Origin: Rhodococcus globerulus NBRC 14531
Lineage (GTDB): Bacteria; Actinomycetota; Actinomycetes; Mycobacteriales; Mycobacteriaceae
Assembly: GCF_001894805.1 (NCBI RefSeq)
Contig: NZ_BCWX01000002.1
Coordinates: 992,001-1,056,000, forward strand
Length of the DNA: 64,000 bases
Reading direction: 5' to 3'
The position numbers and the translations under genes are program-made. Below are positions 61,432 to 63,914 of the stretch, piece after piece; the stretch's first letter is position 1; every line of letters starts with the position of its first letter. The notes below the pieces were generated by a model. The model had not been told where the DNA came from. It made no database searches and saw nothing but the letters and a program-made list of their open reading frames with translations.

Positions 61432-61464
61432 GTCGGTCGGCGTGACCATGTCATGCCGACCGAC
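61432..61464 (+). terminator. Terminator after ppc
   Basis: GTCGGTCGGCGTGAC (61432-61446) pairs with GTCATGCCGACCGAC (61450-61464) over 15 positions with one G-T pair and a 3-base loop. Confidence 0.7.
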
Positions 61465-61491: not shown

Positions 61492-61666
61492 ATTGGACGA
61501 CCGTTCATGTGGTAGACATCACATCGCCTGACGTAATCGGGAACGGCAGACGCAAGCGGCTAAAGTCCTCAATTCGGGCACCGCGGCGGGTTTCTCATTC
61601 CCTGACGCGTCGAGCCGCCGGCCATCGCGCCGCGCGACACTCTTGTCTCGAGGAGGCTTGTCTACG

Positions 61667-62926
61667 ATGTCCACTGCGCTGTTGAATACCTCGGGGCCGC
61701 TGATGCTCGGAGGCGAACCCGCCTCCACTGCGGTCCGCGACTTCGTCCCGCTGGCGGCCGAACTTGTGAAGAACTTCTCCCGCGCCAACGCAACCTTCAA
61801 AACCCTCAACCTGGAATCCGTTCAGGAGGATCTGGTTGCGGTGACCGCGCAGGGGTTGCAACTGGCGATCCAACTCATGGACCACAGGAAGCTGCCGACC
61901 GACCGCGACCTGGACAGTATTCACACCCTGACCGTCCGGCAGGCCCGCCAGGGTGTCCCGCTCAGTGCCATCCTTGCCGTAACAGACGAGGCCATCAGCG
62001 TCATTCGGAACCTTATCCTCAGCAGAGCGGGCGTCGAGGACTCTGCCAACCTCAAGGAGCTCAACCACCTCCTGTTCACAGTCGCGCAGCGCCTTCATTC
62101 ATTCATCTCGGTCAGCTATCTGGCGGCGATCCCTGCCGGCGCCCAGCTCGAGGGGAGCTCCGCCGGCGCCCTCGTCAAAGCCATGTTGGATGGAGACGAT
62201 CCCACTGATCTTGCGTTGCAGTTGGGTATCGAGCTCGCACCCCGCTATCTCGTTCTGCGGCTCCTCGTGAACCTACCGAAACCTCGGCCGGGGGCCAGGG
62301 ACGGCGCGCATCAGCGCCTGCAGGCATACCGTGATCTCGCCGCGGCACAAGCCAAGGTTGCTGCCCACTTCGGAGCCAAGTTGCTCGAAGCCCCGGCGCC
62401 GCAACGCGGCCTGGTCCTCATCGAGGGCACACCACACTGGGGGTTGGTGTGCCAAGTCGTGCGTCAGGCGACGGCCAAGATCGGGGTGCAGATCACGGCG
62501 GTCGGCGAGAATGCCGCACTCGAGGATCTCCCAGCGGCCCAGGCGACCACCCGCGAGTTGGTCCACCTCGTCCGGAGGCTCGGGCTGCCGGCGCAGTCAT
62601 ACCGGATGGAGGACCTCGCGCTCGAGTATCAATTGACCCGGACCGGCCCGGCGCGCGACAGCCTGATCGGCCTACTCAGGCCGCTCGACAGCAACCCTGA
62701 ACTGTTGCAGACGCTGTCCGTGCACTTGTCGAACGACCAGCACCGGCAGCGCACCGCGTCAGCGTTGGGCCTGCACACGAACACTGTCGACAACCGGATC
62801 AAGCGCATTGCACACCTCACCGGATTAGACCCGACTTTGCCCTCTGAGCTGCTTAAACTGCGTGCGGCGATGATCGCACTGACCTTTGTCAGCACCGACG
62901 TGGACATCCGTCCAGTGAAATTGTGA
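61667..62926 (+). CDS. PucR/CdaR-type transcriptional regulator
   Basis: A 419-residue regulator with a C-terminal PucR-type helix-turn-helix (HLSNDQHRQRTASALGLHTN then TVDNRIKRIAHLTGLDP, about residues 355-392), a middle CdaR/GGDEF-like region (ELAPRYLVLRLLVNLP; PHWGLVCQVV) and an N-terminal helical sensor region. The ATG at 61667 follows GAGGAGG. Such proteins are usually activators of adjacent genes. Here the next genes, starting 126 bases downstream, are four very short peptide genes with a promoter bearing direct repeats, so they are the likely regulon. The inducer is unknown. Confidence 0.85.
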   Translation: MSTALLNTSGPLMLGGEPASTAVRDFVPLAAELVKNFSRANATFKTLNLESVQEDLVAVTAQGLQLAIQLMDHRKLPTDRDLDSIHTLTVRQARQGVPLSAILAVTDEAISVIRNLILSRAGVEDSANLKELNHLLFTVAQRLHSFISVSYLAAIPAGAQLEGSSAGALVKAMLDGDDPTDLALQLGIELAPRYLVLRLLVNLPKPRPGARDGAHQRLQAYRDLAAAQAKVAAHFGAKLLEAPAPQRGLVLIEGTPHWGLVCQVVRQATAKIGVQITAVGENAALEDLPAAQATTRELVHLVRRLGLPAQSYRMEDLALEYQLTRTGPARDSLIGLLRPLDSNPELLQTLSVHLSNDQHRQRTASALGLHTNTVDNRIKRIAHLTGLDPTLPSELLKLRAAMIALTFVSTDVDIRPVKL

Positions 62927-62952
62927 AACCTCACATAACTCACTGGTAACAA

Positions 62953-63003
62953 CCCACTTTTGATGGCTGGACCCCACTTTTCAGTAGACAACCGGGATAT
63001 AAA
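62953..63003 (+). promoter_or_regulatory. Promoter of peptide cluster with paired direct repeats
   Basis: CCCACTTT occurs at 62953-62960 and 62973-62980, exactly 20 bp apart (two helical turns). TATAAA at 62998-63003 serves as a -10 box; the second repeat occupies the -35 position. This arrangement is typical for an activator binding next to RNA polymerase, probably the PucR-type protein. Confidence 0.6.
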
Positions 63004-63052
63004 AATGTGGCGCGAATCACCGCGCAGACCAGTAACGAAAAAGGGGAAAGAC

Positions 63053-63166
63053 ATGATCAACGGCCAGGAAAACGCCCTCCTCGGTGCCTTCTTCGACACG
63101 ATCCTGCAGCTGTTCAACGCAGGCAGCACCGGAACTGGCTCGACGAACGGCGGCGGCGTCGCCTAG
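63053..63166 (+). CDS. Small peptide 1 of QLFNAGS cluster (37 aa)
   Basis: A 37-codon gene opening MINGQENALLGAFFDTILQL and continuing FNAGSTGTGSTNGGGVA. It starts with an ATG after a strong AAGGGGAAAGAC site. The first 22 residues can form a hydrophobic/amphipathic helix; the tail is almost all Gly, Ser, Thr and Asn. No signal peptide, cysteine or known family. It shares the ILQLFNAGS core with peptides 2 and 4. A strong hairpin 12 bases after its stop suggests that it is made in excess over the downstream peptides. Confidence 0.75.
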   Translation: MINGQENALLGAFFDTILQLFNAGSTGTGSTNGGGVA

Positions 63167-63177
63167 GGACGCATTTC

Positions 63178-63211
63178 GTGCCCCTGTGCGAGATCCTTCG
63201 CACAGGGGCAC
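63178..63211 (+). terminator. Intra-cluster hairpin after peptide 1
   Basis: A perfect 14-bp stem (GTGCCCCTGTGCGA, 63178-63191, with 63198-63211) and a 6-base loop, followed by GTTTCTC. It probably terminates most transcripts or protects the upstream mRNA end. A second shorter stem CCCCC/GGGGG (63220-63224 and 63234-63238) follows. Confidence 0.75.
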
Positions 63212-63276
63212 GTTTCTCGCCCCCACGATCTGAGGGGGTGACCACACCGCCACCCCGCTTAGGCCAGGAGTAATAC

Positions 63277-63420
63277 ATGATCGCCTCACCAACGACCGGC
63301 GCTTTGGCCGTCGTCATGAACACCGTCCTGCAGATGTTCAACGCGGGCAGCAGCTTTCTCTTCACCAATAACGCTCCGCTCCCGGGCGGCGGCGAAGATC
63401 CCACGACGCCCGTGCCCTGA
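63277..63420 (+). CDS. Small peptide 2 of QLFNAGS cluster (47 aa)
   Basis: A 47-codon gene: MIASPTTGALAVVMNTVLQM then FNAGSSFLFTNNAPLPGGGE and a Pro/Thr-rich end (DPTTPVP). The ATG has AGGAG seven bases upstream. The segment ALAVVMNTVLQMF is strongly hydrophobic. It aligns with peptide 1 over VLQMFNAGSS. It lies after the hairpin, so it depends on read-through or a weak promoter of its own. Confidence 0.72.
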   Translation: MIASPTTGALAVVMNTVLQMFNAGSSFLFTNNAPLPGGGEDPTTPVP

Positions 63421-63464
63421 TCGATCTACCCGCTCGCACCGTAACGTCGCAGACAGGAATCATC

Positions 63465-63608
63465 GTGATCAACTCGCCGTACACCCAGGGCAGCCTGGTC
63501 ATCGACTTCGGCTCTCTTGCCAGCGCACTCGGTTTCGGAAGTGCCGGCCCGATCGTCTCGTTCGGCAGTGCCGGAAGCATTGAATTCAGTAGTGTCGGCG
63601 GACTTTGA
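63465..63608 (+). CDS. Small peptide 3, FGSAG-repeat (47 aa)
   Basis: A 47-codon GTG-start gene. It begins INSPYTQGSLVIDFGSLASA and continues LGFGSAGPIVSFGSAGSIEF, then SSVGGL. FGSAG appears twice at 9-residue spacing, with FGSLAS earlier, giving an alternating hydrophobic/small pattern suited to beta-strand or hairpin rather than helix. ACAGGAATC precedes the GTG. It lacks the QLFNAGS core but shares the INSP-like start and location with the other three peptides. Confidence 0.65.
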   Translation: MINSPYTQGSLVIDFGSLASALGFGSAGPIVSFGSAGSIEFSSVGGL

Positions 63609-63670
63609 CAGACCTCACTGTCTCCCACGCACATTCGTATCCACCCGCGAAACAGAAAGCAGGTCTTCCT

Positions 63671-63838
63671 GTGCCTACAATTCCGCTCACCGGTGACCCC
63701 GTCGTGATCAACATAATTGTCCAGCTTTTCAGCGCAGGCAGCAGCAATGCGCTCGCACTGGGCGGTGTCGGGAGCAGCGGTCTCGGTAGCACCGGGCTCG
63801 GCAGCTTCGACTCAGCGAGCATGGGCAGCGCCGCATAG
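63671..63838 (+). CDS. Small peptide 4 of QLFNAGS cluster (55 aa)
   Basis: A 55-codon GTG-start gene: PTIPLTGDPVVINIIVQLFS with AGSSNALALGGVGSSGLGST and an end GLGSFDSASMGSAA. The core VINIIVQLFSAGSS matches peptides 1 and 2; the tail has GLGS repeats. AGCAGG lies seven bases before the GTG; a TTG at 63605 would add 22 unlikely residues. It is the last gene before a long bidirectional hairpin. Confidence 0.7.
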   Translation: MPTIPLTGDPVVINIIVQLFSAGSSNALALGGVGSSGLGSTGLGSFDSASMGSAA

Positions 63839-63854: not shown

Positions 63855-63914
63855 TGAACTGCTCCCCGAATCTCGGACTGACGAGTTCAGTTCTGACATT
63901 CGGGGAGCAGTTCA
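63855..63914. terminator. Long bidirectional hairpin after peptide cluster
   Basis: TGAACTGCTCCCCGAAT (63855-63871) pairs perfectly with 63898-63914 over 17 bp, with a 26-base loop. It lies between the peptide cluster and a convergent gene and overlaps the stop codon of the latter. Confidence 0.8.

Follow-up and report, generated by a model that had tools for sequence, protein, structure and literature searches.

The window, a stretch of 64,000 nucleotides from Rhodococcus globerulus NBRC 14531, carries a regulator gene followed by four short frames that are real genes under purifying selection, three of them encoding members of one peptide family. The preliminary description had pointed to four short genes with their own ribosome sites behind a regulator, and frames, lengths and sites are all confirmed. 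The frames have 37, 47, 47 and 55 codons, lie 3′ of the regulator, and are each preceded by a purine-rich ribosome site; the reported start at 62953 is 100 bases before the first of them. Within the databases and open literature searched the peptides are undescribed so far, and the first description did not include the operator, the hairpin inside the operon, the horizontal movement or the lack of Lys and Arg in peptides 1, 2 and 4. The features of the locus are as follows.

61508–61523, no strand: TGTGG-N6-TCACA, lying ahead of the regulator and differing from a Crp/GlxR-type site by one mismatch; found at the equivalent position in 11 of 11 Rhodococcus and T. biformata loci
61667–62926, forward: regulator of 419 amino acids with a C-terminal PucR-type helix-turn-helix (PF13556, E 1.2e-16)
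62922–62935, no strand: putative operator TGTGA-AACC-TCACA; it overlaps the stop codon of the regulator
62998–63003, forward: probable −10 element TATAAA; conserved as TATAAAA in the 11 Rhodococcus and T. biformata loci
63053–63166, forward: peptide 1, 37 amino acids, ATG start; amphipathic helix and Gly/Ser/Thr tail
63177–63212, forward: strong RNA hairpin separating gene 1 from gene 2, not followed by a T-tract; perfect 15-nt arms, z −7.66
63277–63420, forward: peptide 2, 47 amino acids, ATG start; family of peptide 1
63465–63608, forward: peptide 3, 47 amino acids, GTG start; repeated Phe-Gly/Ser-Ser-like units, outside the QLFNAGS family
63671–63838, forward: peptide 4, 55 amino acids, GTG start; family of peptides 1 and 2, with a GLGS-repeat tail
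63855–63914, forward: large hairpin, probable end of the operon; 23-nt arms, z −6.95

Four short genes under purifying selection

A lack of conservation had been named beforehand as refuting the frames. Instead we find all four intact and in order at 11 loci, ten from Rhodococcus and one from Tomitella biformata, with changes mainly at third codon positions. Pooled over these loci, pN/pS is 0.30, 0.31, 0.43 and 0.12 for peptides 1, 2, 3 and 4, and 0.26 for the regulator; among the peptides the strongest purifying selection is thus on peptide 4. Eight pairwise ratios were examined per gene. A few are near 0.5, and a single exception, peptide 4 between L042 and L040 (0.82), runs clearly against the trend. 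Counted on equal-length copies only, differences at codon positions 1, 2 and 3 number 202, 70 and 792 for peptide 4 (11 of 11 loci) and 171, 108 and 354 for peptide 1 (10 of 11); peptides 2 and 3 could be counted in this way on seven and three of the 11 loci. Most of the ribosome sites in the relatives fit the search pattern, while those of some peptide 1 copies are visible via the alignment. Of 28 genomes searched in the genus, 10 contain peptide 2 at E < 1e-15.

The gap between genes 1 and 2 contains a hairpin that folds 7.66 standard deviations better than shuffled sequences. The 11 loci supply eight distinct versions of its arms, which were aligned manually. All cells (96 of 96) are paired and changes on both sides (compensatory) occur at 5 of the 12 pairs, these being counts without phylogenetic control. 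Long hairpins lie within 110 nt behind peptide 4 at ten of the 11 loci, and not clearly at L039, in a comparison made without a shuffle test; they differ in sequence between groups of loci. The one at 63855–63914 probably ends the operon. No intrinsic terminator with a T-tract was found on the coding strand of the region, and three Rfam hits there are each below the gathering score. We infer that the hairpin between genes 1 and 2 leads to differing amounts of peptide 1 and of peptides 2 to 4, with peptide 1 probably the more abundant. A further 15-nt inverted repeat with a 3-nt loop, at window positions 61432–61464 shortly after ppc (phosphoenolpyruvate carboxylase), is possibly the ppc terminator.

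Strong hairpins between and behind the frames are what might be expected if the region were a conserved untranslated RNA containing chance frames. Yet the codon pattern of conservation contradicts this, length changes stay in frame, and the family resemblance between the peptides spans two gene orders, so that such a reading is hardly conceivable.

Distribution of the cassette and its movement

How widespread is the cassette? A search with the regulator through 121 genomes of the family revealed one genome of another genus with an 84% identical regulator and the same four peptides, that of Tomitella biformata AHU 1821. Three more loci, L052 (Tomitella cavernea), L053 and L055, the latter two assigned to the Tomitella group from their genus label, have regulators 36–39% identical to that of the window. 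Peptides 1, 2 and 4 are present there in the same order, transcribed divergently from the regulator, and no counterpart of peptide 3 was found at these three loci. With a profile of 26 sequences, 14 of 401 genomes of the family give three matches each, the weakest at E 1.4e-12. These carriers are ten genomes of the genus and four of the Tomitella group, and each of the 14 has all three of peptides 1, 2 and 4. Seven weak matches in the same set, six in other genera and one in genome G019 of the genus (E 4.7e-4 to 0.0065), lie in frames of 175–645 residues, two of them with stops, and were judged to be chance. Among 397 genomes of the order, a sample that missed some known carriers, only the window's own was clear; weak matches in 86 of them (E up to 1), the best at 0.0017 in a 646-residue frame, were likewise attributed to chance.

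Wider searches lead to the same organisms. A scan of 84,980 species for close relatives of peptide 4 confirmed three loci, all from Rhodococcus or Tomitella. A protein database search returned 47 clusters, some extended or frameshifted, whose names, where present, are 'hypothetical' or 'uncharacterized' protein. The named carriers are Rhodococcus and Tomitella, both mycolic-acid genera. No plasmid or phage copy was found: peptide 4 matches none of 72,556 plasmid records, the regulator matches none of 50,697 phage records, and of 38 pattern-matching stretches in viral contigs none was confirmed as a peptide 4 relative. The best plasmid regulators, on the Rhodococcus plasmids NZ_CP103309.1, NZ_CP075341.1, NZ_CP079226.1 and NZ_CP126460.1, are 39.9% identical.

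The cassette occupies at least three kinds of locus. It lies behind ppc in five Rhodococcus genomes, while in the other five ppc is elsewhere. By our reading of the neighbouring genes, which covered two of these latter five, a glutamate-dehydrogenase-like fragment precedes it at L034, a desaturase-like gene follows it on the other strand at L037, and a glycyl-tRNA-synthetase-like gene adjoins it in T. biformata and at other Tomitella-group loci. MFS-type transporter frames occur some 2 kb or more downstream at some of the ppc-side loci; neither these nor the L037 desaturase-like gene are constant neighbours.

The regulator of the window shares 84% identity with its T. biformata counterpart, against only 73–74% with those of the five erythropolis-like genomes with the second location. 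For phosphoglycerate kinase and WhiA the identities are 77% and 83% to the T. biformata genome, and 100% and 99% to G001, one of the five erythropolis-like genomes. The order is thus reversed between the regulator and the housekeeping proteins, and simple vertical descent is therefore inadequate. The cassette looks self-contained and, judged from these pairwise identities, has moved between genera. Carriage is patchy, and the function is therefore dispensable.

The regulator and the putative operator

The C-terminal helix-turn-helix of the regulator matches HTH_30 (PF13556) with 60.7 bits, against a cut-off of 27. No other Pfam match lies outside this region at E up to 10, and the PucR domain PF07905 is missing; the protein is therefore named PucR-type from its helix-turn-helix alone. 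It is 73–90% identical to its counterparts at nine other Rhodococcus loci.

A palindrome TGTGA-N4-TCACA begins 130–134 bases before peptide 1 at all 14 loci, including the three divergent Tomitella-group loci, despite otherwise different flanks. The exact motif occurs at four sites in the 6.7-Mb genome, against three for a backwards control pattern, and is therefore by itself too common to prove anything. The other three genomic copies lie inside an NRPS-like frame, at the end of an etfA-like frame and in a citE-like frame (names assigned by our reading); they were considered as part of a larger regulon and rejected as targets.

The palindrome is nevertheless associated with the regulator subfamily. 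Over 26 loci with homologous regulators (107 kb) there are 11 exact palindromes. Reordering the arm letters gives none: 191 draws, taken at random from the 29 alternative orders, each score zero, as do arms spaced by 2, 3 or 5–8 bases. Three of the 11 are at peptide loci. The remainder fall at 8 of 23 peptide-free loci, that is, loci without such peptides within flanks of 1.5 kb, where the palindrome lies 16–159 bases before the aligned start of the regulator; these eight come from three genus labels (g6, g23 and g27) and are not eight independent events. The other 15 of the 23 have no exact copy. We infer that part of the regulator subfamily binds this palindrome, and that the switch already existed when the peptides were recruited to it. 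Short Lys/Arg-poor frames with a ribosome site beside homologous regulators were found outside the Tomitella group only at L061, where the frame is at the locus edge, and at L071, and neither was judged credible as a peptide gene. At L049 and L050, relatives without the peptides, we read ABC-transporter-like ATPase and permease frames behind the homologous regulator, and other regulators of the subfamily may control envelope exporters. The genome G051, from another genus of the family, has seven regulator homologues of 36–46% identity.

A scan of the region found no sigma-70-type promoter, and the TATAAAA element conserved elsewhere is not evident at the three Tomitella-group loci. The TGTGG-N6-TCACA sequence at 61508–61523 is presumably a Crp-type site, by comparison with the GlxR site quoted in PMC7652997. 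If so, the switch could be linked to cAMP.

The closest precedent for the pair of regulator and operon is GabR of Corynebacterium glutamicum, which likewise has a C-terminal PucR helix-turn-helix, an adjacent target operon and an inverted-repeat site upstream (GabR sites, PMC7652997). The PucR-type proteins GabR, AdeR and PutR bind inverted repeats of 17–24 bp, and the site of Bacillus subtilis PucR is non-palindromic (PMC7652997). Unlike the GabR pair, the present locus has the 14-bp palindrome TGTGA-N4-TCACA, the N-terminal part of its regulator has no Pfam match, and the target is an operon of microproteins, not a catabolic one.

The peptides and their possible function

The common core of peptides 1, 2 and 4 that was proposed in the preliminary description is borne out when the profiles of the peptide 1 and peptide 4 families are compared (probability 94, E 9e-8), and is not due to chance. 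Nor does the core match any named family in the databases searched. Peptides 1 to 4 have no match in Pfam (E up to 10), NCBIfam, PADLOC or PHROGs; a profile built on peptides 1, 2 and 4 finds no PDB chain; and six core strings are absent from the openly available papers searched. The locus was not found described in that open literature, and a term search of a paper on stress in R. erythropolis finds neither PucR nor porin, small protein or hypothetical protein. As had also been stated, no signal peptide is evident: by inspection no peptide has a basic N-terminal region.

The composition of the peptides is unusual. At the 11 loci, peptides 1, 2 and 4 take 22 distinct forms, and in these there is not one Lys, Arg, His, Cys or Trp; 17 more database sequences, which we selected with extended or frameshifted ones omitted, contain no Lys or Arg. 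Trypsin would therefore not cleave peptides 1, 2 and 4. Peptide 3 has one Arg in five of nine distinct forms. The calculated pI is 4.05 for peptides 1, 2 and 4 and 4.05–6.5 for peptide 3. All four are hydrophobic (GRAVY +0.15 to +0.81), with masses of 3.6–5.3 kDa.

Amphipathicity was evaluated over the 15 residues before AGS (or MGS) at 100 degrees, against shuffled sequences. The fraction of shuffles reaching the observed value is 0.007 for peptide 1 and 0.042 for peptide 2, and 0.028 and 0.019 for their Tomitella-group counterparts. For peptide 4 the alpha-helical amphipathicity falls short of significance (0.218, and 0.460 in the Tomitella group). AlphaFold2 places a helix at residues 3–27 of peptide 1 (pLDDT 71, pTM 0.35); its model of peptide 4 is poor (pLDDT 54), with no helix in the core, and no beta structure is predicted in either. 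A helix is thus predicted for type 1 and likely for type 2. Taken as helices, peptides 1, 2 and 4 would carry a stripe of Asn, Thr, Gln and Asn that ends in AGS, and the conserved spacing N-x3-Q-x2-[NS] suggests specific helix packing. Peptide 2 also contains GSSFL (window 63346–63360), a candidate acylation site that is likely coincidence; the same string is given for the ghrelin O-octanoylation site (PMC11066868).

The analogy originally drawn was with PorA and PorH of corynebacteria. Sec signals are absent from PorA, PorH and ProtX, and PorH needs PorA to reach the surface, along with mycoloylation of one or both proteins (PMC12632848). PorACj of C. jeikeium has 40 residues, is leaderless and is largely helical by circular dichroism (PMC3792995). 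O-mycoloylated sites are serines and less often threonines, in flexible Ser/Gly/Ala-rich stretches with no strict consensus (PMC11066868). The likeness lies in a length of around 40–60 residues, the lack of an evident signal sequence, helicity as predicted for peptide 1 though not supported for peptide 4, a Ser/Gly-rich tail in some, neighbouring genes with separate ribosome sites, acidity, co-inheritance of subunits and a mycolic-acid host. A PorH-like protein of a related genome (L135) has a Ser/Gly-rich C-terminal tail.

There are also differences. PorA/PorH systems have one or two subunits, whereas here there are three paralogues and one unrelated peptide; the present genes have their own regulator and putative operator, are sporadic and are horizontally exchanged; and peptides 1, 2 and 4 lack Lys and Arg. 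Profile comparison gives a probability of 0.6 (E 0.1) for PorH and 0.07 for PorA, but PorH against PorA itself reaches only 1.0, so that this method could hardly have revealed a relationship. Comparison with a single PorH sequence gives P 0.034 over 14 columns, which is a lead only and becomes weaker when real relatives are added. Thus the analogy holds for size, the lack of an evident signal, acidity, tail and ribosome sites, and does not extend to detectable homology. Esterases of the PF00756 type, which have the fold of mycoloyltransferases, are present in 14 of 14 carriers, and also in 12 of 14 control genomes, so they are not specific.

Other known systems are more distant. The MspA-type porins PorARc, PorARr and PorBRr resemble the present peptides in being from the Rhodococcus cell wall, where they form channels; those of R. 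ruber have 213 and 267 residues and Sec signal peptides (PMC9233653). The peptides here are by contrast leaderless, have 37–55 residues and give no match to the MspA domain (PF09203). A small channel-forming protein of R. erythropolis, from the same group, was reportedly described by Lichtinger et al. in 2000; its reported mass of 8.4 kDa exceeds that of every peptide here, and identity with any of them is unproven.

Our preferred, though tentative, reading is that these are exported leaderless microproteins that act in the mycolate envelope as a pore or coat, by analogy with PorA and PorH, and that they are encoded by a mobile operon under the control of a switch. The PucR-type regulator would bind TGTGA-N4-TCACA upstream of peptide 1 and switch on the four microproteins, probably from the −10 element and as a single transcript, with the stoichiometry set by the hairpin behind gene 1. 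Peptides 1, 2 and 4 would be paralogous hydrophobic helices with a flexible Gly/Ser/Thr tail, and peptide 3 a Gly/Ser/Phe repeat peptide. Most likely they would leave the cell without a Sec signal, as PorA and PorH do, and be anchored in the mycolate outer membrane, possibly with O-mycoloylation of serines or threonines in the tail, assembling together into a hetero-oligomeric pore or surface layer. Against this, a helix of the peptide 1 type is short for spanning the mycomembrane, and inspection of the neighbouring genes revealed no recognisable peptide exporter or mycoloyltransferase beside the cassette. Further points against it are the absence of detectable homology to PorA and PorH, the non-significant amphipathicity and poor model of peptide 4, the patchy carriage, and the 15 peptide-free regulator loci that lack an exact palindrome.

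Several other functions can be weighed against the same properties. The peptides might be secreted and self-assemble on the surface as a fibre, film or surfactant coat instead of a pore, with the helix stacking outside the cell together with the Gly/Ser repeats in peptides 3 and 4. The repeats in peptide 3 and in the tail of peptide 4 fit this well, as do the absence of basic residues from peptides 1, 2 and 4, the hydrophobicity of all four, and a hairpin that could set major and minor subunits. We nevertheless regard such a coat as unlikely, given the lack of an evident secretion signal or a recognised peptide exporter beside the genes, the conserved N-x3-Q-x2-[NS] spacing with the specific packing it suggests, and AlphaFold2 models of peptides 1 and 4 without beta structure. 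It is slightly less likely still that the peptides are small regulators of the inner membrane, where they would insert and modulate a membrane protein or the adjacent regulator, or of the cytoplasm. A short hydrophobic helix would suit that role, as would the close linkage to the regulator, kept in two gene orders, but three co-inherited paralogues with long Gly/Ser tails would be unusual, and there are no positive residues to orient a membrane helix.

Four tandem leaderless peptides beside a regulator, horizontally exchanged and dispensable, also bring to mind a leaderless bacteriocin of several peptides, or peptides that damage membranes as part of a mobile cassette for competition or defence. 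Aureocin A70, a four-peptide leaderless bacteriocin, has a similar arrangement of tandem short leaderless peptides and a regulator. Leaderless bacteriocins are generally cationic; aureocin A70 is so and has transport and immunity genes, whereas peptides 1, 2 and 4 have no Lys or Arg in 39 sequences (the 22 plus the 17 selected), and no immunity or dedicated transport gene is recognised beside them. Nor does PADLOC give a match, and selection is purifying, not diversifying, making this function improbable. The signalling role offered earlier as an alternative fares worse in the form of pheromone precursors that a double-glycine (C39) peptidase-exporter would cleave behind the core AG. The hydrophobic positions −4, −7 and −12 before AG do resemble the consensus of double-glycine leaders, but Peptidase_C39 (PF03412) is found in none of the 14 carrier genomes, while the control was positive in 8 of 14 well-known genomes. 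The double-glycine form of signalling is contradicted by this, and is very improbable.

An envelope assembly of exported microproteins, if that is what the cassette encodes, bears on how solutes permeate the outer membrane of mycolic-acid bacteria outside Corynebacterium and Mycobacterium, and on how leaderless peptides reach it. The locus offers a compact and transferable test case with a candidate operator. Peptides of this kind get missed, with database copies that are unnamed or hypothetical and, in peptides 1, 2 and 4, no site for trypsin. It is possible, though doubtful, that they represent a new class of assembly in the mycolate envelope. This would be a hetero-oligomeric pore or coat made of three paralogous leaderless microproteins and an unrelated one, nearly free of basic residues, and spread between genera by a mobile cassette with its own ligand-responsive switch. 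If this is true, a trait of surface permeability would be gained or lost in one step.
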